Of a DNA stretch of 45,397 bases, positions 1 to 9,228 are shown one piece after another. Location: assembly GCF_000423085.1 (NCBI RefSeq), contig NZ_AUHH01000035.1, positions 1-45,397 on the forward strand, in the 5' to 3' direction. This DNA comes from Granulicoccus phenolivorans DSM 17626 = NBRC 107789 = JCM 15570. GTDB taxonomy: Bacteria; Actinomycetota; Actinomycetes; Propionibacteriales; Propionibacteriaceae. The position numbers were made by a program, and so were the translations under genes. The notes beneath the pieces were generated by a model, which did not search any database, was not told the origin of the DNA, and worked only from the letters and a program-made list of their open reading frames with translations. Numbering within the stretch: the stretch's first letter is position 1; every line of letters begins with the position of its first letter.

Positions 1-189
1 TACGAGAAACGCTCGGTCGCGATCAGTTCGAACCTGCACCCCTCCGGGTTCGACGAACTGATGCCCAAGACCTTGGCCACCGCCACCGTCGATCGACTCC
101 TCCACCACGCCCACGTCTGCCAGACCAGCGGTGACTCGGTCCGGTTGACCCAAGCACTCGCCGGCCGGGGGGTGAACCCCTTGGCCTGA
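1..189 (+). CDS. istB: IS21-family transposition helper ATPase IstB, C-terminal fragment
   Basis: The open frame runs from the window edge to TGA at 187-189 and encodes 62 residues starting YEKRSVAISSN and containing ATVDRLLHHAHV. This is the typical end of the IstB AAA+ ATPase: strand plus sensor region, then a 'DRLLHHA' helix. IstB works with the IstA transposase to select the insertion target in IS21-family elements. The Walker motifs and IstA would lie upstream, outside the window. The downstream sequence has repeated terminal motifs expected of an IS21 end, which supports the call. Whether the element is intact cannot be judged. Confidence 0.85.
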   Translation, partial: YEKRSVAISSNLHPSGFDELMPKTLATATVDRLLHHAHVCQTSGDSVRLTQALAGRGVNPLA

Positions 190-223
190 ACACTCCTGGC
201 CGGTGGTGGCCACAGCCCCCAAA

Positions 224-317
224 GGGCAGATCTCAAGGCCACCACCGGGCAGAACTCGTGACCGTCACCGGGCAGGTTTCATGACCGCCCCCGGGCAGTT
301 CCTACTGGCCCTTGACA
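224..317. repeat. Right end of the IS21-like element: four 23-bp direct repeats
   Basis: GGGCAG recurs at 224, 247, 270 and 293, exactly every 23 bp. Each copy is followed by a degenerate NNTTCNTGACCG-like segment. IS21-family ends carry several copies of a transposase-binding repeat, so this block is probably the right terminus. It likely closes near TTGACA at 312-317; the exact last base is an inference. It lies 34 bp after the istB stop. Confidence 0.65.
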
Positions 318-416
318 GACGGAGCGATCGCTGGATGGCATCCGGCCGAGAACTGCCCCAGGAAGGTGTCGCAGCTAAGGGGCGATCCTCCCTCACGTGG
401 CTCCCCGCGCTGGACC

Positions 417-506
417 CTTCGGCCGGTCCCATCCTCGCGACGAAACCTGCGGCCGGTGCCCCTCCCGCGACGGAACCTGCGGCCGGCGCCCTTCCCGCGA
501 CGGACT
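417..506 (+). repeat. Three tandem 30-bp repeats (forward array, block 1)
   Basis: Units start at 417, 447 and 477. They share the start CTKCGGCCGG and the core TCCCGCGACGGAAC, which is TCGCGACGAAAC in the first copy. The second and third copies differ at only a few positions. No convincing gene overlaps. The ORFs that cross it are low-complexity and read equally long in several frames. The same 30-bp family recurs at 5921-6010 and, inverted, at 589-663 and 6327-6446. Confidence 0.75.
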
Positions 507-530
507 TGATCATCACGCAGGCTGAAAATG

Positions 531-560
531 TTCCCGCACCTGCTGCAACACGCGCGGGAA
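531..560. repeat. Short hairpin between the inverted repeat arrays
   Basis: TTCCCGC (531-537) can pair with GCGGGAA (554-560) around a loop containing CTGCTGCAACA. The loop motif is a variant of the TGCTGCACCA sequence found in the other repeat block (6309-6318) and at 43786-43795. The hairpin sits at the centre of block 1, between the forward array and the inverted array. Confidence 0.5.
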
Positions 561-588
561 GGTTGGCGCATCGCGGCATGGCCGGAAG

Positions 589-663
589 CATCGCGGGAGG
601 GCACCCGATCGAGAAAACCATCGCGGGAAGGCGCCCGACCGAGAAAACCATCGCAGGATCCCG
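589..663 (-). repeat. Two and a half 30-bp repeats (inverted array, block 1)
   Basis: CATCGCGGGA starts at 589 and 619, and CATCGCAGGA at 649, exactly 30 bp apart. The first two full units are identical at 27 of 30 positions and end in GAGAAAAC. Their core TCGCGGGAgGGC is the reverse complement of the core of the 417-506 array, so the two arrays are inverted relative to each other. Confidence 0.7.
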
Positions 664-790
664 AACAGTGTCGCCCCGCCGGATCCGGCGACGGTTCAGG
701 ACCGACCGGCTACAGTTCCGGACCCGCCAGCGACGGTTCAGGACCGGCCGGCGACAGACCAGATCCGGCAGCGCCCCCTCGGGACCAGCC

Positions 791-940
791 AGCGACCGTA
801 CGCACCAGCCAGCGACCGCTCAGGACCAGCCAGCGACCGCTCAGGACCAGCCAGCGACCGCTCAGGACCAGCCAGCGACGGTTCACCCCACGCAGCGACG
901 GTTCACCCCACGCAGCGACTGGTCACCACGCACAGCGATG
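791..940. repeat. Tandem 21-bp then 20-bp minisatellite
   Basis: Three near-identical 21-bp units start at 818, 839 and 860 (GCTCAGGACCAGCCAGCGAC plus one base). Three 20-bp units follow at 881, 901 and 921 (GTTCACCCCACGCAGCGACK; the third is diverged). Degenerate copies of AGCGACC extend upstream to about 680. No frame through it resembles a protein. From 941 to 1026 I see nothing further. Confidence 0.75.
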
Positions 941-1026
941 ACTGCCACGGCCGCTGCAACGATGGAACCCTCGCTGCCCGGGACTCGGCCCCACCGCCGC
1001 CGCCGCCCCGACGCGAGGCCCGAGGG

Positions 1027-2616
1027 CTACCCGCGCTTGGCCCGCTCGGCGGCCAACTTCTTCTGCTGCTCGGCCTGCTGTTCGCGCATTTCATCAAGGT
1101 CGAACTTGAAATGAATGACGAAGAAGTACGCCAACCCGACCGCCGCCAACGGCAGATACCAGGGCAGGTTGAACACCAGCAGAGCGGTGATGATCAGCAC
1201 CACCTCGAAGCCGCGCAGCAGGTTGAAGATCAACCCCGGCGGCAGCGCACCCGCACCGGTGGCGAGCATCGGGGCGCCGTAGTCGACCGGCTTGGCGGTG
1301 GTCCACCGGGCCGCACCGAGGATCCCCGCCGCGGCAGTGCACACTGCGGCGACGATACCGGTGAGGGCATCGGGGTAGATGCCGAGGAACGCCGGAATGG
1401 TCGCGAGCGCCCAGACCCCGCCGATCACCATCGAGGCCTCGATCGAGGTGGCCTTGATCTGACCGTCGGTGTAGGGCAGGCATCGGGCCAACCCACTGGT
1501 CCGGGTGAGCACGCGCAGCCCGTTCTGGATCGGGATCAGCGTCGCGAACAGCGCCAGGCCGGCGATGATCGGCGCGAACCGGCCCAGCCCGAGGGCCGAG
1601 GTGGCGTACGGGATGACGATCGTGGCGGCCACCGGGAGCAGCATGCTGGGCTTGCGCAACAGGCGCTGCACGTCCCGGTGGAACAACTGGGCGACCCCGA
1701 CGCCGCGGCCGCGGGTCGGCCGCACATGGCCGCGCTCCAGGGCCTCGCGTTCCACCACCATGTCGTGGGCCAGCCCGAAGTCCAGGGCGTACATGGCGCC
1801 GGCCATGCCCGAGACCAGCGAGCCGCCCGAGGTCAGATGCGTACGCCGGATCGACCCGAGCCGGATCCCGGCCAGGATGGCGGAGATGATCAACAACAGC
1901 AGGGCCAGCCCGGCGATGATCACCGCGATCTGGACCTCCTGATTCAGCCCGATCACCACTTGGAACCAGCCGGCGGCGATCCCGACCACCAGCACCAGCG
2001 CGGCCACCGCGGCCGCGGAGAACACGAACCCGGCGATCCGGGTGGTCAGCCGGCGTTCGGCGCCCTGCTCGGCAGCGGCGAAGGCGACCAGGCTGGCCGC
2101 GGCCAGCCCGCAGGCGGCCGCCCAGGCACCGATCGCGGCCCCGCCGGAGCCGGTCAGCGCAGCCGCCAGGGCCCCGAGGGCGGCCCCGACGACACCGGCG
2201 ACCACGATGAACAGGATCAGCCGATTGCGCAGCAGCCGGGCCCGATTGATCGGGGCATCCAGCAGCCAGAACCCTTCCGCGGCGGAGGCGACCACCGGCC
2301 CGAACAGCCGGGCGACCGAGATCGCCAACGCGGCCACTCCGGCCAGCACCGCCCACGGCACCAGGGTGCGGGCACTGATGCAGGCCCCGGAGGTACACGC
2401 GGCGGCGTCGGTCTGCGCGCTGAAGATCGCGGCGATGATCATCGCGCCGAACACGGCGACGGCGAGCACGACCACATAGGTGTCCTGCAGCGCCTCCCAC
2501 AGGGTCTTGGTGGCGCGCCCGGTCCGCCATTCCTTGATCTGGGCGAGCAATTCCTTGGGGTCGACGGCGCTGGTGTCCACGGTCTCGGTGGACTCGGCGG
2601 GCTGTTCGGGGGACAT
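1027..2616 (-). CDS. ABC transporter permease-like membrane protein (DUF6297 type)
   Basis: About 529 residues with a short acidic N-terminus, some 12 strongly hydrophobic segments and a charged C-terminal tail rich in Glu, Gln and Lys. Placement next to an ABC ATPase, with a TGATG junction (its ATG shares one base with the ATPase stop), marks it as the membrane partner of an exporter-type ABC system. It resembles the actinobacterial DUF6297 family from memory; the substrate is unknown. I use ATG at 2616 rather than the TTG one codon earlier. It is the second gene of a two-gene unit read away from menG, and its 3' end faces the repeat block. Confidence 0.75.
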   Translation of the reverse strand: MSPEQPAESTETVDTSAVDPKELLAQIKEWRTGRATKTLWEALQDTYVVVLAVAVFGAMIIAAIFSAQTDAAACTSGACISARTLVPWAVLAGVAALAISVARLFGPVVASAAEGFWLLDAPINRARLLRNRLILFIVVAGVVGAALGALAAALTGSGGAAIGAWAAACGLAAASLVAFAAAEQGAERRLTTRIAGFVFSAAAVAALVLVVGIAAGWFQVVIGLNQEVQIAVIIAGLALLLLIISAILAGIRLGSIRRTHLTSGGSLVSGMAGAMYALDFGLAHDMVVEREALERGHVRPTRGRGVGVAQLFHRDVQRLLRKPSMLLPVAATIVIPYATSALGLGRFAPIIAGLALFATLIPIQNGLRVLTRTSGLARCLPYTDGQIKATSIEASMVIGGVWALATIPAFLGIYPDALTGIVAAVCTAAAGILGAARWTTAKPVDYGAPMLATGAGALPPGLIFNLLRGFEVVLIITALLVFNLPWYLPLAAVGLAYFFVIHFKFDLDEMREQQAEQQKKLAAERAKRG

Positions 2617-3407
2617 CAACGGGTCCGTTTCCGCTTGCGGCCCTGGGAGGGCGCGGGCTTCTTCTTCGGCTGGTTCTGCTGTGGTTTGGGTTGCGGGGCC
2701 GGCGTCGGCGCCTCGGTCTCGGGATCGGCGTCGATCAGGCCGGGGGCCCCGTCGCGTTCGACCTCCTCGCGCCCCTCACCGATGTGCACCACGCGGGTGG
2801 CGACGTTCTCCACCAGGTAGGGCTCATGGGAGGCGAATACCACGGCCAGGCCGTCGGCGAGCTCCTGATTCAGCCGGTCGGCGAGCCAGCGTACGCCCTC
2901 CACGTCCAGGCGCTGCTCGGGCTCATCGAGCACCAGCAGCTTGCGCGGCCGGACAAAGGCGGTCGCCAGTGCCAATCGGCGGCGCTGCCCCGAGGACAGG
3001 GTGCCGGGCAACTGACCCGACTGCGGCACCAGCCGCACCTGATCCAGGATGTCGTCGACCACCCCGTCGGCGTCGGGCACGTTGTGCGCCCGGGCGAGCA
3101 GGTCCAGGTGCTCGACCACCGACAGGTCGGGGAAGAAGTCGAGATCGTCGATCACGGTGGCCATATTGCGCCGGATCAGCGGGTCGGTCTCCTTGAGCTT
3201 CTGCCCGCACACGTCGATGGTGCCCTCGTCGGGGCGATCGATTCCGACGATGCAGCGCAGCACCGTCGACTTGCCCGCCCCGTTGCGTCCGGTCAGCGCG
3301 ACCGCCTCTCCGGCGTACACCTGGAGATTGAAGTGATCGACGATGGTGGTCGGTCCGAAGGCTTTCTTCAGTCCGGCCACTTTGAGGGCAGGGGTGCGCT
3401 TGGCCAT
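2616..3407 (-). CDS. ABC transporter ATP-binding protein
   Basis: 263 residues with Walker A GRNGAGKST (about residues 40-48), signature LSSGQRRR (137-144), Walker B LLVLDEPE (157-163) and an H-loop ASHEP. The Q-loop position reads VIDDLDFFPDLSV, without the usual glutamine, so nucleotide-domain coupling may differ from standard importers. The C-terminus is a Lys/Pro/Gln-rich basic tail (QPKPQQNQPKKKP), probably disordered. It is translationally coupled to the membrane protein downstream. A possible -10 (AAGAAT) lies 6 nt before the ATG. The pair is more like an exporter or resistance-type system than a solute importer, since no binding protein is nearby. Confidence 0.9.
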   Translation of the reverse strand: MAKRTPALKVAGLKKAFGPTTIVDHFNLQVYAGEAVALTGRNGAGKSTVLRCIVGIDRPDEGTIDVCGQKLKETDPLIRRNMATVIDDLDFFPDLSVVEHLDLLARAHNVPDADGVVDDILDQVRLVPQSGQLPGTLSSGQRRRLALATAFVRPRKLLVLDEPEQRLDVEGVRWLADRLNQELADGLAVVFASHEPYLVENVATRVVHIGEGREEVERDGAPGLIDADPETEAPTPAPQPKPQQNQPKKKPAPSQGRKRKRTR

Positions 3408-3413
3408 GGCCGG

Positions 3414-3419
3414 ATTCTT
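3414..3419 (-). promoter_or_regulatory. Candidate leaderless -10 for the ABC ATPase gene
   Basis: AAGAAT on the minus strand followed by 6 nt and ATG (3407). No Shine-Dalgarno is present. This is the weakest match in a series of similar arrangements in the window. Confidence 0.35.
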
Positions 3420-3470
3420 TCACGCATGGCCAAGTTGACCGCTGTCGTGACTGTTGTCGGTACGGGCCGC

Positions 3471-3476
3471 TAGGTT
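3471..3476 (+). promoter_or_regulatory. Candidate leaderless -10 for menG
   Basis: TAGGTT, then 7 nt, then ATG at 3484. A GGAGG at 3477-3481 sits only 2 nt from the ATG, too close for a standard ribosome binding site. Confidence 0.45.
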
Positions 3477-3483
3477 GGAGGTC

Positions 3484-4185
3484 ATGTCGAAGAGCGATCA
3501 TCGGGCCACGTTGGCCAAACGGCGAGCCGATGTCTCGGCCATGTTCGACGGGGTCGCCGACCGCTACGACCTGATGAACACGGTGATGACCGGCGGAATC
3601 GTGGAGTCCTGGCGCCGCGAGGTGGTGGCCGCCCTGGACCCGCGTCCGGGCGAGTTGATCCTCGATCTGGCCGCGGGCACGGGCACCTCCAGCCGGACCT
3701 TCGCCGATCGTGGCGCCACCGTGGTCCCCACCGACCTGTCGCTGGGGATGCTCCAGGTCGGCCGCAAGCGGCAGCCGGACCTGCATTTCGTGCACGCCGA
3801 CGCGCTCTGCCTGCCGTACGCCGACGCCACCTTCGACGCGGTGACCATCTCCTTCGGGCTGCGCAATGTGGAGCACACCCTGGCCGCGCTGCAGGAGATG
3901 CACCGGGTGACCCGCCCCGGGGGCCGGCTGGTGATCGCGGAGTTCTCCACCCCGACCAATCCCGTGCTGCGCTTCGGCTACCAGGACGTGGTGCTGAAGG
4001 CCCTGCCGGTGCTGGGCCGGGTGCTGTCGTCCAACCCGTCGGCGTACGACTATCTGATCGAATCGATCCGGGCCTGGCCGACCCAGACCGCGCTGGCCGA
4101 TCTGCTGGTGGACGCGGGCTGGCAGGAGGTTGCCTTTCGCAACCTGACCGGGGGGATCGTGGCGCTGCACCGCGGGAAAGCGTGA
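3484..4185 (+). CDS. menG: Demethylmenaquinone methyltransferase (MenG/UbiE)
   Basis: 233 residues. Transfers a methyl group from S-adenosylmethionine to demethylmenaquinone, the last step of menaquinone synthesis at the membrane. Diagnostic sequence: [13 protein letters not shown] near the N-terminus, SAM-binding [11 protein letters not shown], then [13 protein letters not shown], a UbiE/MenG signature. Length fits the family. I chose the ATG at 3484 because the conserved region begins shortly after it and a -10-like TAGGTT lies just upstream; a GTG at 3454 would add 10 unconserved residues. It overlaps the next gene as TGATG. The remaining men genes start about 3.4 kb downstream. Confidence 0.93.
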
Positions 4186-5900
4186 TGGAGCTGGCCCTGG
4201 ACGCCTGGGCGGCGCGCACCTGCGCGATGAAGACCTGGAACAACTACTCCCCGCTGGTCGAAATGCCCCAGCCCGATGAGGCGCTCCAGGAGTATTTCGT
4301 CGGCGCCAGCGAGTATGTCGCCGGGGTCCAGGACACCGTGCTGGCCGCCGCCGACCTGCGTACCGCCGATCTGCGCCCGCTGCAGGACCGCCCGCCGGCC
4401 GAACAGGCCGCCGCCTGTGTGGCGAGCATGGCCACGGGCGTGGAGGTGATCGTGGCCGGCCTGCTCCCCCGCGATCTGCGCGGGCACCGCTCCGGACGCG
4501 CCCACCTGTGGCTGCGCGGTGCCGACCGCGCCGACGGCCGCCCGGGCTATCATCCGGTGCTCGCCAAGCGGCACCGGATCCAGGAGCGGCGCCAGTCCTC
4601 GCGCACCGGGGGCGCGATCCACAGCCTGCTGGTCAGCGACCTCGCCCGGCCGCTGCCCCGGGACTGCTTCGAGGTGCCCGACCGAGCGGTCCGGACCGGT
4701 TCCCGGGAGGGCGACCTGATCCAGCTGGCCCACTACTGGCGGCTGCTGGAGGCTGCGGGCTTCGCCGCCGAGGGTACGCCGCGCGGCGGCATCATCGGCA
4801 CCGATCAGCCGCTGGGCGACGAGCGGACCGTACTGACCTGGATCGATCTGGACGAACCGATCATCCGGACCTTCTCGCGCAGCGCCGAGGAGGGGTGGGC
4901 GATGCGCACGATCCTGCAGCGCTATGACCATGAGCACGGCTTCCGGGTGTTCCTGGCCGAGCAGGCGCTGGCCGGGCAGCCGCAGCCGATCCGGCCGATC
5001 CGCAACCGGGAGTGCGACTCCTGCCCGTGGTGGGAGATCTGCCGCACCCAGTTGCCCACCGATGACCTGTCGATCAAGATCGACAAGGCGCCGCTGGATG
5101 TCCGCGAGATCTCGGTGCTGCGGTCGCTGGGCGTCCACACGATCACCGACCTGGCCGGGACCGATCTGGAGCGACTGCTGGAGGTGTACCTGCCGGAGGT
5201 CGCGCACCGGCCGCGGGCCGAGGAGCGGCTCCGGTTGGCCGCGCACCGGGCCGGCCTGCTGCTGCACGGGGTCGAACTGGAGCGCACCGGCACGGCCCCG
5301 ATCGCGTTGCCCGAGGCCGAGATCGAGATCGACTTCGACATCGAGACCTCCGCGGAGGACCGGGTCTACCTGTGGGGCTTCTGGGTCCGTCGGCGGCAGC
5401 CCGACGGCGGGTTCGAGGCCGGGGAGTATGTGGCCTTCGTCGCCTGGGACGACCTGGCCGACGACTCCGAACTGGCCCTGGCCCGGGCCGCGATGAACTG
5501 GCTGCGCGACCTGGTCGACGGCGCCGCCTCGGTGGCCGTCTACCACTACTCCAGCTACGAGAAGGTTCGCCTGGGCCAGCTGGCCGCCGGCCAGGACCCG
5601 GCCCTGGTGTGGGCGACCGGATATGCCCGGTCCGGCTTCGTCGACCTGTTCTCGGTGATGCAGGAGCACTTCTTCGGCACCCACGGACTCGGCCTCAAGG
5701 TGGTCGCCAAGGAGGCGGCCGGCTTCGAGTGGCGCGACGATGATCCCGGGGGGCTGAACTCCCAGACCTGGTTCAACGAGGCCGTGCACGGGGAGACCGA
5801 GGAGGTCCGCAGCACCGCGCGGGCCCGGGTGCTGGCGTACAACGAGGATGATGTGCGGGCCACCCTGGTGCTGCGGGACTGGTTGCGGACCCAGAACTGA
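4185..5900 (+). CDS. RecB-like nuclease with Fe-S cysteines and RNase H-like domain (TM0106 type)
   Basis: 571 residues. Cys13 together with CDSCPWWEIC in the middle provides the one-plus-three cysteine pattern of AddB/Cas4-type Fe-S nucleases. The N-terminal half (GDLIQLAHYWRLLE) fits a PD-(D/E)XK RecB-like fold. The C-terminal third begins with IDFDIETS and ends with YNEDDVRATLVLRDWL, the acidic motifs of the RNase_H_2 exonuclease-like domain. The architecture matches the TM0106/TIGR03491 family, whose function is not established; a DNA or RNA processing nuclease is likely. It is translationally coupled to menG (TGATG), though no functional link is known. ATG at 4185 is preferred over GTG at 4182. 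Confidence 0.82.
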   Translation: MELALDAWAARTCAMKTWNNYSPLVEMPQPDEALQEYFVGASEYVAGVQDTVLAAADLRTADLRPLQDRPPAEQAAACVASMATGVEVIVAGLLPRDLRGHRSGRAHLWLRGADRADGRPGYHPVLAKRHRIQERRQSSRTGGAIHSLLVSDLARPLPRDCFEVPDRAVRTGSREGDLIQLAHYWRLLEAAGFAAEGTPRGGIIGTDQPLGDERTVLTWIDLDEPIIRTFSRSAEEGWAMRTILQRYDHEHGFRVFLAEQALAGQPQPIRPIRNRECDSCPWWEICRTQLPTDDLSIKIDKAPLDVREISVLRSLGVHTITDLAGTDLERLLEVYLPEVAHRPRAEERLRLAAHRAGLLLHGVELERTGTAPIALPEAEIEIDFDIETSAEDRVYLWGFWVRRRQPDGGFEAGEYVAFVAWDDLADDSELALARAAMNWLRDLVDGAASVAVYHYSSYEKVRLGQLAAGQDPALVWATGYARSGFVDLFSVMQEHFFGTHGLGLKVVAKEAAGFEWRDDDPGGLNSQTWFNEAVHGETEEVRSTARARVLAYNEDDVRATLVLRDWLRTQN

Positions 5901-5920
5901 GCGTCGGCCGCGGGCTCTCT

Positions 5921-6010
5921 CGGCGGGCGCGTCGCGCGATGGGAAGCTCAGGGCGGGGGCGTCCTGCGACGGATAGTTCCGGCCGGGGGCGTCCCGCGAC
6001 GGCGCCCTTC
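5921..6010 (+). repeat. Three tandem 30-bp repeats (forward array, block 2)
   Basis: Units start at 5921, 5951 and 5981, exactly 30 bp apart. They contain GTCGCGCGAT, GTCCTGCGAC and GTCCCGCGAC at the same offset, and the third starts GGCCGGGGGC. The core TCCCGCGACGG and the preceding GGCCGG are shared with the 417-506 array, so this is the same repeat family. It begins 20 bp after the nuclease stop. Confidence 0.7.
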
Positions 6011-6040
6011 ATTCCGGTAGCGAAGCCATGACCGAGCGAC

Positions 6041-6318
6041 TGGTGCAGCAATCGCGCGAACCGGATGGTGTCGCGGGGTACTCGTTTCCGTCGCGGCACG
6101 AGGGGAGTTTTCCCCTCGCTCCCCGGCCGGCACTCGCCCCGGCCCGTGACCAGTTTTCAAGCGCCGTCGACGGCGGGCCGAAAGGGTGAGCCACATCGAG
6201 GCATGGGCCTCCACGGGTACGGCGGCGTGGCCCACCGAGTCGGGGCGACCCACCGGCGCCCCCCGCGATGGATCCCGTCAACCGGCGACCGCAACCGGTT
6301 CACGCATCTGCTGCACCA
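6041..6318. repeat. Inverted repeat pair with 27-nt arms bounding the centre of block 2
   Basis: The left arm (6041-6067) starts TGGTGCAGCA and contains GAACCGG. The right arm (6292-6318) is its reverse complement at 22 of 27 positions and ends TGCTGCACCA. The intervening 224 bp has no credible gene. The arms lie just inside the forward (5921-6010) and inverted (6327-6446) 30-bp arrays, so the whole block is roughly palindromic. Confidence 0.65.
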
Positions 6319-6326
6319 CCCGCGGG

Positions 6327-6446
6327 TTGTCCGGAGGCGTCGCCGATCGTGATGTCCTGTCGCAGGAGTGACACCGAGGCGTTTTGCTGTCGCGGGAAGC
6401 CCAGCCACGGCACTTGCTGTCGCTGGGATGGGCTGCGTACGGTGCT
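6327..6446 (-). repeat. Four degenerate 30-bp repeats (inverted array, block 2)
   Basis: CTGTCGC occurs at 6357, 6387 and 6417, with a weaker copy TTGTCCG at 6327, all spaced 30 bp. The best unit reads CTGTCGCGGGAAG, matching the inverted array of block 1 (ATCGCGGGAAG). Outside this core the units diverge. The remaining stretch 6447-6596 is GC-rich and I see no gene or signal in it. Confidence 0.6.
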
Positions 6447-6596
6447 GGCCCCCGCAGGGGCCGCCGCGCCCGAAGCCGTGGCGCCCCGCAGCAGCACCCC
6501 TGTCCCGCCCACGCGGAGCCCGCGCAGAGTTCCTCGCCCTCCCGCCACCGAGCCCCCGAGCCCCCGGGCCCCCGGGCCGCAGAGCCGGGGACCGCC

Positions 6597-7607
6597 CTAC
6601 CGCCGCTGCCCGCTCAGGTCGTAGGTAACCGCCTGCCCGACCCGGCTGCGCAGGGTCACGGTAATCGCGGTCCCGTCGCGGCGTACCTCGGCCCGGTCCA
6701 GGTCGGCCGGGGCGACCCCGAGGTCGGTCTTGGCCCGGGCCACGACACTGGCCAACTGCTCCGGAGCCACCTCGCTCAGCCGCAGCCCCGGCCCGGCGAT
6801 GCCGTTGTCCCGATCGCAGAGCAGCCGCAGACCGGCGCCGCCCTTGACCCGGCTATTGCGTTCGAAGCGGGGCGCGCAGCGGACGGTGCCGTAGTCGCCG
6901 ACCGGTTGGAAGAAGGACACATCGGCGACACCGTCGGTGCCCGGGCCGGTGGCGTAGTGCAGCCAGAGCTGGTTCGGTTCGGTGTCCCCGTACGCCCGCT
7001 GGTAGTCGGCGAAGGCGGTGGTCAGCGAGGCGGCGCTGTCGATGTCGGGAAGTTCGGCGACCGGCTCGCCGCCCAGGCTGGCCCACTCCTGGCCCTGGTC
7101 GGTGCCGCAGGAAATCCCGATCGCGGCGGCTCCGGAGGGGGTGACGTCGAGGGTGGAGACCACGGTGCGGGTCGGGCCGTAGGTTGTCTGGCAGTATGCC
7201 CGGCCGCGCTGGTGCTCGGCGAAGAACTGATCCAGCGGCACCTCGTCCACGCTGAGGCTCCCGAAGCCGGCGTTGACCGCCTGTCCGGCCGCGGTGCCGT
7301 CGTCGAGGTAGAAGTACTCCAGTCGGCCATCGGGTTTGGCGATGGTGGCGCGGCCCCCGAACTCGGCCAGCCAGAACCCGGCGACCTTGTCCCCCGGCTG
7401 CATGCCCGCACTCAGTTTCGCTCGCAGCTGCGCGGGGTCGGCCGGCAGGCCGGAGCGTACGCCGGTCCCCGACGCGCTCGACCCCGAGCCGTCCGAAGCG
7501 GATCCGGCCGAGTCGGCACCGGCACTGCAGCCGGTCAGCAGAAGTGCGGCGGCGAGAAACCCGGCGGCAGAGCGGGCCGGGCGGCGGGCGGCGCGGTGTC
7601 GGAGCAT
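6597..7607 (-). CDS. Predicted lipoprotein downstream of menD, function unknown
   Basis: 336 residues starting at ATG 7607, with an Arg-rich n-region, a hydrophobic stretch and the lipobox LLLTGC. A Ser/Gly/Ala-rich linker typical of actinobacterial lipoproteins follows. Several spaced cysteines in the mature part (such as YCQTTYG, ISCGTD and VRCAP) could form disulfides. I do not recognise the fold. It starts 10 bp after the menD stop on the same strand, so it is probably co-transcribed with menC-menD, but nothing ties it to quinone synthesis. A longer upstream reading frame overlaps menD and is rejected. Confidence 0.75.
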   Translation of the reverse strand: MLRHRAARRPARSAAGFLAAALLLTGCSAGADSAGSASDGSGSSASGTGVRSGLPADPAQLRAKLSAGMQPGDKVAGFWLAEFGGRATIAKPDGRLEYFYLDDGTAAGQAVNAGFGSLSVDEVPLDQFFAEHQRGRAYCQTTYGPTRTVVSTLDVTPSGAAAIGISCGTDQGQEWASLGGEPVAELPDIDSAASLTTAFADYQRAYGDTEPNQLWLHYATGPGTDGVADVSFFQPVGDYGTVRCAPRFERNSRVKGGAGLRLLCDRDNGIAGPGLRLSEVAPEQLASVVARAKTDLGVAPADLDRAEVRRDGTAITVTLRSRVGQAVTYDLSGQRR

Positions 7608-7617
7608 GCCCCCGACC

Positions 7618-9228
7618 CTAGCCGCCGGTGACCAGCGACCGGATCCGCTGATCCAGCGCCCGCCGGTCCGTACGCCCGATCGGGACCTCGAGCACCGACA
7701 GGCCCTCGACCGGCCGGGCCAGCGCGTACGCCACCTCCGCCGAGGTCGCGGCCCGCTGGTACGCCACCCCGTACCCGGCGCACACCGCCGCCAGATCCGC
7801 GCCGTGGGGGGTCGCGAAGACCCGCTCGAAACTGGCGGCGTACTCCGGCGCCCCCTGCTCCAGGGTCGCGAAGATCGAGCCACCGTCGTCGTTGGCGACC
7901 ACGATCCGCAGATCCGGGCGGGGCTCCCCCGGTCCGATCAGCAGTCCCCCGGCCTCGTGCAGGAAGGTCACATCGCCGACCAGGGCAGTCACCGGCCGCT
8001 GCGCGGCCAGCGCGATCCCGGCCGCGGTGGAGACAGTGCCGTCGATCCCGGCCAGGCCGCGATTGGCGTAGGTCACCACCGGCTCAGCCGGCACCGGCGC
8101 CAGGTCGAGGTCGCGGATCGGATTGGACGACCCCGCGACCAGGACGCCGTCATGACCGGCCACCGACTCCTGCACCGCCGCGGCGAGGCTCGGCCCGGTC
8201 AGCCCGCCACCGAGCGCCTGATCCAGCCGTCCGCTCAGTTCGGCATCGGCCTCGGTCCAGGCCCGCCGCCAGTTCCGGTCGAACGGAATCTGCACCGCAT
8301 CCACCACCCGGTGCACCCGGCGTCCCGGCGCGGCCCAGCGGGCCCGATCGGAGACCACGATGATCTCCAGATCGGGCCGGGACAGCAGCGCACTGACCGG
8401 CCGCGACAGGGTCGGATGCCCGAACACGACCACCCGGTCGATCCGTTGCCCGAGGTCGGTCTCCAGCAGCAGCCGGCCGGTCCGCAGCGCGGCGCCGTGC
8501 CGGGCGTTGCTGGAGGGCTCGGCGATCAGCGGGACCCCGACGGCGCCCTCGGTGGCCGCAGCCCCGGCGGCGACCGAGGCGTCGCCGGCGATCAGCAGCG
8601 TGTGCGGCCCGGGTTCCAGCACGACCGGGTCGGGGACCAGCCGGCGCGGCGCGAGAACGGTCGCCGGCACGTGCGGCCAGGGCGCCCGGTCGGGCACCAG
8701 CGGCGGGGTGAAGGCACAGTTCAGCTGGCCCGGCCCCGGGTCGTCGGTCCGGGTCCCGTCGATCAGGCCGAGCAGCCGGGTCACCTGGTAGTGCCAGTCG
8801 GCCTGGGTCCCCTCGGCCGAGGCGACCTGGCCGAACCCGCGCAGGAAATCCCCGAAGATGCCGTGCTGCCGGGTGGTCTGGTTCGCCCCGGACTCCAGCA
8901 ACGGAACCGGCCGGTCGGCCGACAGCACCAGCAGCCGGATGCCGCTGTGGTGGGCCTCCATCACCGCCGGCAGCAGGTTCCCCACCGCGGTTCCGGAGGT
9001 GGTCACCACCGGCACCACCCGCCCGGACGCCTTGGCCAGGCCCAGGGCCAGGAACCCCGCGGACCGTTCGTCGATGCGTACGTGCAGTCGGAGGCGCTCG
9101 CCGTGGGCCGCCTCGGCCAGGGCGTACGCCAGCGGCGCCGACCGGGATCCCGGCGCCAGCACCGCCTCCGCCACGCCGGCCCCGAGCAGGCTCTCCACGA
9201 TCGTGCGGGCGCACTCGGTCGCGCTCAT
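7618..9228 (-). CDS. menD: 2-succinyl-5-enolpyruvyl-6-hydroxy-3-cyclohexene-1-carboxylate synthase (MenD)
   Basis: 536 residues. ThDP- and Mg-dependent enzyme that adds the decarboxylated 2-oxoglutarate unit to isochorismate in menaquinone synthesis. The N-terminus has APGSRSAPLAYAL and RIDERSAGFLALG, both MenD hallmarks. The C-terminal cofactor motif is LVGDVTFLHEAGG followed by VVANDDGGSIFATLEQG. The ATG at 9228 overlaps the menC stop by 4 bp (ATGA), so the two are translationally coupled. Length is normal for the family. Confidence 0.95.
   Translation of the reverse strand: MSATECARTIVESLLGAGVAEAVLAPGSRSAPLAYALAEAAHGERLRLHVRIDERSAGFLALGLAKASGRVVPVVTTSGTAVGNLLPAVMEAHHSGIRLLVLSADRPVPLLESGANQTTRQHGIFGDFLRGFGQVASAEGTQADWHYQVTRLLGLIDGTRTDDPGPGQLNCAFTPPLVPDRAPWPHVPATVLAPRRLVPDPVVLEPGPHTLLIAGDASVAAGAAATEGAVGVPLIAEPSSNARHGAALRTGRLLLETDLGQRIDRVVVFGHPTLSRPVSALLSRPDLEIIVVSDRARWAAPGRRVHRVVDAVQIPFDRNWRRAWTEADAELSGRLDQALGGGLTGPSLAAAVQESVAGHDGVLVAGSSNPIRDLDLAPVPAEPVVTYANRGLAGIDGTVSTAAGIALAAQRPVTALVGDVTFLHEAGGLLIGPGEPRPDLRIVVANDDGGSIFATLEQGAPEYAASFERVFATPHGADLAAVCAGYGVAYQRAATSAEVAYALARPVEGLSVLEVPIGRTDRRALDQRIRSLVTGG

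Follow-up and report, generated by a model that had tools for sequence, protein, structure and literature searches.

A dispersed extragenic repeat of multi-box dyads and 30-bp box arrays behind a predicted nuclease gene

The repeat block behind the nuclease gene

The window analysed here is the whole stretch of 45,397 nucleotides, which forms contig C33 of a draft genome of 4.12 Mb and 74 contigs (G000, referred to below as this genome). A predicted nuclease gene and a convergent gene call enclose a gap that carries two symmetric sets of short boxes and is referred to as block 2, and a related region, block 1, lies further to the left. The features, in window coordinates, are as follows.

404-658, no strand: block 1, with a left 30-bp array (404-504), a dyad core (493-598) and a right 30-bp array (589-658), from TRF
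4182-5900, plus strand: left neighbour of block 2, a predicted nuclease gene with an RNase_H_2 domain (PF13482, Pfam); the first box lies about 30 bp past its end
5932-5939, minus strand: left array box 1, TCGCGCGA, from the box scan; the next box, at 5962, follows at a 30-bp step
5962-5969, minus strand: left array box 2, TCCTGCGA, from the box scan
5992-5999, minus strand: left array box 3, TCCCGCGA, also the outermost left box of dyad A, from the box scan and core alignment
5992-6098, no strand: dyad core A, centred at 6045/6046 on TGGTG/CAGCA, with right boxes at 6052, 6071 and 6091
6099-6260, no strand: sequence separating dyads A and B, outside the dyad consensus
6261-6367, no strand: dyad core B, centred at 6313/6314 on TGCTG/CACCA, with right boxes at 6320, 6340 (weak) and 6360
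6360, plus strand: right box, TCGCAGGA, from the box scan, at a 30-bp step and part of dyad B
6390-6397, plus strand: right array box, TCGCGGGA, from the box scan
6420-6427, plus strand: right array box, TCGCTGGG, from the box scan
6597-7403, minus strand: right neighbour of block 2, a convergent gene call with no Pfam match

A box scan of 5901-6596, with at most two mismatches allowed per box, found four box pairs at exactly 30 bp, a number reached in 0 of 1000 dinucleotide shuffles of the same segment (mean 0.19, maximum 2). The repeat structure of block 2 is real, and an earlier first-pass annotation made from the letters alone is confirmed in part. The 30-bp period that it described holds for the boxes at 5932, 5962 and 5992 and for those at 6360, 6390 and 6420, but the unit it placed at 6327 is out of step; a weak box, TCGCCGAT, with three mismatches lies instead at 6340, 20 bp before 6360, and is an inner box of the dyad. 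The inverted repeat of 27 nt, matching at 22 positions, that it reported around the centre is present (6041-6067/6292-6318) and consists of dyads A and B matching each other.

Each of these dyads spans about 107 bp, with about 160 bp of other sequence separating the two and short 30-bp arrays outside. The claim that block 2 follows the same plan as block 1 holds loosely: both are of the dyad-plus-array kind, but block 1 has one dyad (493-598) and block 2 has two (5992-6098 and 6261-6367). A leave-out profile made from alignment rows of other loci only (n=24) detected dyad A at E 2.1e-13 and 1.1e-12 and dyad B at E 4.7e-15 and 5.8e-13, one match per strand in each case. With the closest relatives removed too (n=21), the best E values were 2.9e-13 for B and 1.6e-13 for A, and the reversed window, used as the control, gave a best E of about 0.09. 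The dyad of block 1 scored E 1.7e-26 and 6e-24, one per strand, with a profile lacking window rows. The region of dyad B (6223-6397) is 77% identical to a copy at C29/C42, and Rfam models at the gathering score gave 0 matches in window positions 1-9000. Block 2 consists of two neighbouring copies of a non-coding extragenic element that is dispersed over the genome.

Geometry, copies and gene context in this genome

The dyad is built of short boxes around TCGCGGGA, arranged symmetrically about a TGCTGCAGCA-like centre. Across aligned cores from many loci the centre reads TGCTG/CAGCA, with further half-boxes inside, and in the core alignment the T of TCGCGGGA lies 7, 26 and 46 bp from it, with array boxes following outward every 30 bp. 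One-base indels occur in the box steps of the dyad, and most aligned cores have a distance of 98 or 99 bp between their last minus box and first plus box. Successive boxes on the same strand, counted in 39 clusters, are separated by 30 bp (154 times), 20 bp (26), 19 bp (16), 29 bp (9) or 31 bp (3); the boxes used for these counts were selected with at most one mismatch, and their conservation there is hence partly due to selection. The prevailing 30-bp step is no multiple of 10.5 bp.

Among 238 units whose boxes have at most one mismatch, the position that stands out most outside the box is the third base upstream, a C (1.5 bits). The unit consensus, CCGTCGCGGGAAGG plus a variable part, is self-complementary no further than CGCG. 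A pair table shows conserved boxes and intervening positions near chance. Spacers tend to be alike within one array and are mostly unlike across arrays, so arrays seem to grow locally; a CRISPR array was ruled out by this likeness of spacers and by the inversion of units at the dyad. The mean identity of spacers in this genome is 0.39, against 0.26 expected, and the median for boxes is 0.77. Boxes kept while spacers have largely diverged suggest selection on resident copies.

The pattern TCGCGGGA-N18-26-TCGCGGGA matches the genome 89 times, and the reversed pattern 0 times. A sequence-only model (R1) was built from 27 cores of this genome, the matches of those very cores being by construction, and gave 149 genome matches at E<=1, the strong ones mostly on both strands. 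Match C14:1380 (E 7.5e-4) and all matches weaker than 8.2e-4 were dropped, and 61 dyads in 41 clusters were kept, one strand each; both figures are slight overcounts, with at least three apparent contig-end duplicates (C13:72/C2:233182, C29:34/C42:345 and C36:42538/C39:41085). Six R1 matches that look coding (L174, L175, L176, L179, L180 and L181) were set aside by eye. Many dyads are paired, about 190-400 bp apart, and several contigs end in arrays. By a home-made gene caller, with overlaps of up to 60 bp allowed, the clusters lie outside called genes, with the exception of a weak gene call that overlaps a dyad in the cluster at C2 178828 and has an AbiEi_4 match under the cut-off; no cluster lies wholly within a called gene. 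At L064, two dyads some 1.2 kb from each other flank a gene at 4373-5389, whose AbiEi_4 match of 23 bits is below the cut-off of 25.

The first-pass proposal of a family of composite extragenic elements is upheld by these 61 dyads in 41 clusters and by relatives in other genera that share the geometry; further copies in the genome and conservation in relatives, whose absence would have refuted the proposal, are thus both present. For its description of the family as previously unnamed, the evidence is weak, namely that no earlier account of such an element was found among the open-licence papers listed, a collection that misses most subscription journals.

The elements favour gene ends and are depleted from divergent gaps, as judged from the same home-made gene calls. 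In this genome, 29 of the 41 clusters have both neighbours, which are convergent in 12 cases, co-directional in 14 and divergent in 3. Under a stricter rule the numbers for 28 clusters are 12, 13 and 3, against 10, 44 and 41 in the remaining gaps that reach 150 bp (P 3e-5 for convergent against divergent). In G097, a genome of another genus, a stop codon lies within 60 bp of 22 of 31 clusters and a start within 60 bp of 5 of 31. Gene pairs at its elements are 12 convergent, 16 co-directional and 1 divergent, against 1, 10 and 8 for the small number of gaps without elements that these short loci contain.

Of 58 family genomes, 56 have a homologue of the nuclease gene beside block 2, with this genome among them, and the 29 loci returned from relatives, each taken with about 1.5 kb to either side of the gene, contain 0 profile matches. 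In G097, which is outside that sample, an element lies 36 bp past the stop of the homologous nuclease gene, with a second one further on, and this shared occupancy could mean a conserved function there. Only 3 of the 69 genes directly beside elements of this genome have a homologue in the 40 loci fetched from G097, G101 and G100; they are the nuclease at block 2 and two neighbours at C11.

Related elements and site occupancy in other genomes

Of 198 family genomes, 8 contain the exact 30-bp box pair: it occurs 85 times in this genome and once each in 7 of the 197 others. These singletons are at chance level, since a reversed control also occurs once in each of 3 family genomes. The R1 model gave weak matches in other genera, some on both strands, and single-genome searches at E<=0.05 with both strands counted returned 65 matches in G097 and 42 in G101. 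In the 7.24-Mb single contig of G097, 48 copies define a sharp four-box unit of about 68 bp with the consensus atCCGCGACCGTTcCaCgCATCCGCGACCGtTG/CAACgGTCGCGGATGcGtGGAACGGTCGCGGaTG; the T lies at 7 and 26 bp as in this genome, and information drops past +-33. Identity among these copies is 0.89 in boxes, 0.62 in spacers (0.25 expected) and 0.34 in flanks (0.30 expected). Across 42 cores from the two genera, the GC pairs in the boxes are invariant, as are the G and A of the TGCA centre, with its T and C conserved at 90% or more.

A second model (R2) was built from 29 G097 and 13 G000 cores, whose own matches are again by construction. Of the 391 genomes of the order, 14 have R2 matches at E<=1e-4, among them G000 and G097 themselves. 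Inspected by eye, the matches in G100, G092, G091, G090, G101 and G115 have the same plan with their own letters, and in G095 and G087 the inner dyad alone is clear; matches in G072, G070, G384 and G340 look coding and were set aside. At E<=1e-3, with both strands counted, R2 matched at least 150 times in G097, 129 times in G108, 80 in G000, 21 in G101, 11 each in G115 and G087, 8 in G091, 4 each in G092, G090 and G095, and 2 in G100; in G098 it gave 0 matches. The matches listed for G097 spread from 0.56 to 7.02 Mb along its contig, and the widest gap between listed elements covers the start of the record.

The geometry recurs across genera, and the letters are species-specific. All five element loci inspected in G108 score with the profile, four having CGCGAC boxes with other spacers and the fifth (L328) CCGCGGCC boxes. 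Arrays of 19-bp period also occur at one G101 and one G115 locus, and similar ones are found in this genome at L065 (5392-5585) and L063 (5736-5800), with GGGTCGGGTTCGGGTGCGC and CCCATCGCCGGAAGCCCAA. A handedness of the G097 element was considered and rejected: position 5 is CG in 13, CA in 21, TG in 11 and TA in 0 of the 48 copies, but no consistent direction holds across positions. Position 20 shares the direction of position 5 in 13 of the 16 copies that are informative, which is a loose end; for positions 3, 18 and 16 the agreement is 6 of 8, 7 of 12 and 4 of 12, respectively.

Sites empty in sister strains had been proposed as a further check, and the outcome in relatives is mixed. G097 and G108 each lack the other's element at one site, but a different hairpin occupies one of these sites, and at the other synteny is limited to one side. 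The G097 element between putative acyl-CoA synthetase and glycerol-3-phosphate dehydrogenase genes is absent in G108, with flanks 86-88% identical; behind the same gene G108 carries in its place a long hairpin unrelated to the boxes (L333, about 1730-1795). At this site, 0 of 14 scanned relatives' loci contain a profile match. Behind another gene G108 carries an element that is lacking behind the G097 homologue of that gene (79% identity), where synteny is confined to the one side. Target-site duplications of 2-9 bp were sought at edges 31-41 bp from the dyad in the 48 G097 copies, and none was convincing; the single nominal excess, of 2-bp duplications at 41 (10 against 3.3), falls about 7 bp beyond the element edge and is taken as chance. 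Old copies with intact boxes favour a function, and differing occupancy favours movement.

Arm pairing, candidate explanations and neighbouring repeats

Pairing between the two arms of a dyad was counted within each copy and compared with arms re-dealt among different copies, using 48 copies from G097 and 27 from G000. Watson-Crick pairs numbered 1191 in G097, against 1216 +-9.4 after re-dealing (0.4% of shuffles as low), and 808 in G000, against 836 +-15.7 (3.8% as low). The deficit is weaker when G-U pairs are allowed, with 3.3% of shuffles as low in G097 and 15% in G000. The arms are therefore not favoured to pair, and only for G097 is active avoidance firmly shown; the pair table and the arm test show no compensatory changes between arms. 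Long perfect palindromes are unstable in cells, which could explain the deficit. RNA folding, another check proposed at first pass, found the window dyads ordinary, five folds being no better than shuffles (z 0.08 to -1.69). A strong fold was seen for one G097 element (z -5.2), as must be the case for the near-perfect palindrome that it is; a hairpin role there is less likely but still conceivable. The first-pass term 'palindromic' is apt for the symmetric dyad but not for the 30-bp unit, which is no palindrome, and in the arm test the dyad acts as a set of duplex boxes, unlike a hairpin.

On balance, the sequences favour a dispersed extragenic repeat whose boxes are binding sites, in duplex form, of a putative oligomeric protein. 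Duplex recognition by such a protein is suggested by the conserved boxes at fixed steps, the freer spacers, the unfavoured pairing and the symmetric layout, and a repeat family is suggested by dispersal and turnover. The protein would read the boxes as double-stranded DNA, sit symmetrically on the dyad and extend along the arrays. Outer units would arise by local tandem duplication and be retained when a usable box is gained, and copies would spread or turn over between loci like other small repeats, surviving mainly behind gene ends. The differing occupancy between close species tilts the balance slightly toward a protein whose task would be to move or copy the element rather than to organise DNA or block transcription for the host. 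More speculative, and rather doubtful, is a fast-evolving, family-specific system in which the oligomeric protein would nucleate on the dyad geometry at dozens of gene ends and extend along phased arrays, with letters that change between species, and would organise the chromosome or separate convergent transcription.

Two of the alternatives overlap with duplex recognition by an oligomeric protein. The boxes may bind a double-strand transposase or recombinase encoded elsewhere that moves the element in trans, as a MITE-like non-autonomous transposon; this is a serious possibility, if not a probable one. It agrees with the species-specific consensus and sharp edges in G097, the two sites occupied differently in G097 and G108, the high copy number and the 77% inter-locus copy of core B of block 2, and is countered by the want of a convincing target-site duplication or a recognised autonomous copy and by the divergence of spacers in this genome around boxes that are kept. 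MITEs are small, dispersed, non-coding and symmetric, features shared by the present element, which also differs in occupancy between sister species at the two sites compared, but here no interior lies within terminal repeats and tandem box arrays stand outside the dyad. Somewhat unlikely is a host role, in which a chromosomal oligomeric protein would use the dyads at gene ends as DNA-organising or transcription-blocking sites. Boxes conserved in otherwise diverged copies of this genome, the bias to convergent gaps and stop codons, arrays growing around fixed dyads and the spread of listed G097 matches over most of the 7.24-Mb contig all fit such a role; positional conservation is little (3 of 69 neighbour genes), sister species differ at the two checked sites, and the nuclease locus is without a profile match in the 29 relatives' loci. 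Noc or SlmA sites are single short palindromes; they resemble the element in numbering dozens across the chromosome and differ from its multi-box dyads with arrays, for which the protein is putative. Transposon ends and plasmid centromeres consist of iterated, evenly spaced protein sites in inverted sets, a likeness that does not extend to dozens of gene-less copies per genome.

Explanations that invoke hairpins fare less well. Bidirectional transcription terminators or mRNA 3' hairpins would account for the convergent bias, for the 22 of 31 G097 clusters close to a stop codon, for the one strongly folding G097 element and for the unrelated G108 hairpin at an orthologous site, yet the window dyads fold no better than shuffles, the arms are not favoured to pair and outer boxes at fixed steps are needless for a hairpin, which makes this improbable. 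Small bacterial extragenic repeats are often explained as hairpins moved by RAYT. A REP/REPIN family moved in this manner by a Y1 transposase through single-strand hairpins is very improbable here. Like REP, BIME and REPIN sequences, the element is short, extragenic, multi-copy, inverted, found in clusters and arrays and species-specific in sequence, but its unit is no palindrome, its arm pairing is unfavoured and its boxes follow steps of 19, 20 and 30 bp, centred on a TGCTGCAGCA-like dyad. Compensatory changes, absent here, are described as common in REPINs (PMC3116915). The Y1_Tnp/RAYT domain (PF01797) was found in 0 of 8 genomes (G000, G097, G101, G100, G098, G095, G115 and G070) and in 5 of 14 controls. 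CGTC-tagged REPs are also multi-copy and extragenic without a known transposase, and a CGTC string stands beside the box here; according to PMC3733652, they have 8-9-bp stems and 4-5-nt loops, form mostly HH dimers and are rarely clustered, and the word 'Actinobacteria' has 0 occurrences in the main text of that paper. Chance similarity, or low-complexity GC-rich sequence, could draw on the very GC-rich genome and on the singleton box pairs in other family genomes, which are matched by the reversed control; it is refuted by the 89 matches against 0 for the reversed pattern, the 0 of 1000 shuffles and the leave-out E of about 1e-13 against 0.09 for the reversed window, and its probability is negligible. 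Taken together, the conserved geometry, species-specific letters, unfavoured pairing and lack of Y1 in the eight genomes point to duplex recognition by a putative protein, for which the 68-107-bp dyad is a concrete bait.

Other repeats lie close to the two blocks. Between the dyads of block 2, window positions 6146-6171 are a remnant half of a different small element, whose ends read GTCGACGGCG(g/c)TTGA ... TCAAGCGCCGTCGAC. Fuller copies of about 66 bp of this GTCGACGGCG-ended element occur at L046 (about 1450-1530), L039, L040 and L057, and the copy at L046 (the same as L097, about 4870) stands beside ..CCCGCGCGAGCGGGATGATCC.. repeats that are presumably type I-E CRISPR repeats, by their appearance. 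The left edge of the window (1-310) cuts into an IstB gene (PF01695) near its 3' end, and 23-bp direct repeats come next. The end of contig C37 (L090) reads like the start of the partner IstA, and two C37 dyads have spacers 91-93% identical to those of block 1; from these three observations, C37 and C33 may be joined through an IS21-type element. To the right of block 1, positions 685-940 carry direct repeats of about 21 bp (CCGGCGACAGTTCAGGACCGG / CCAGCGACCGCTCAGGACCAG) that form an array of their own, perhaps a second class of box array.
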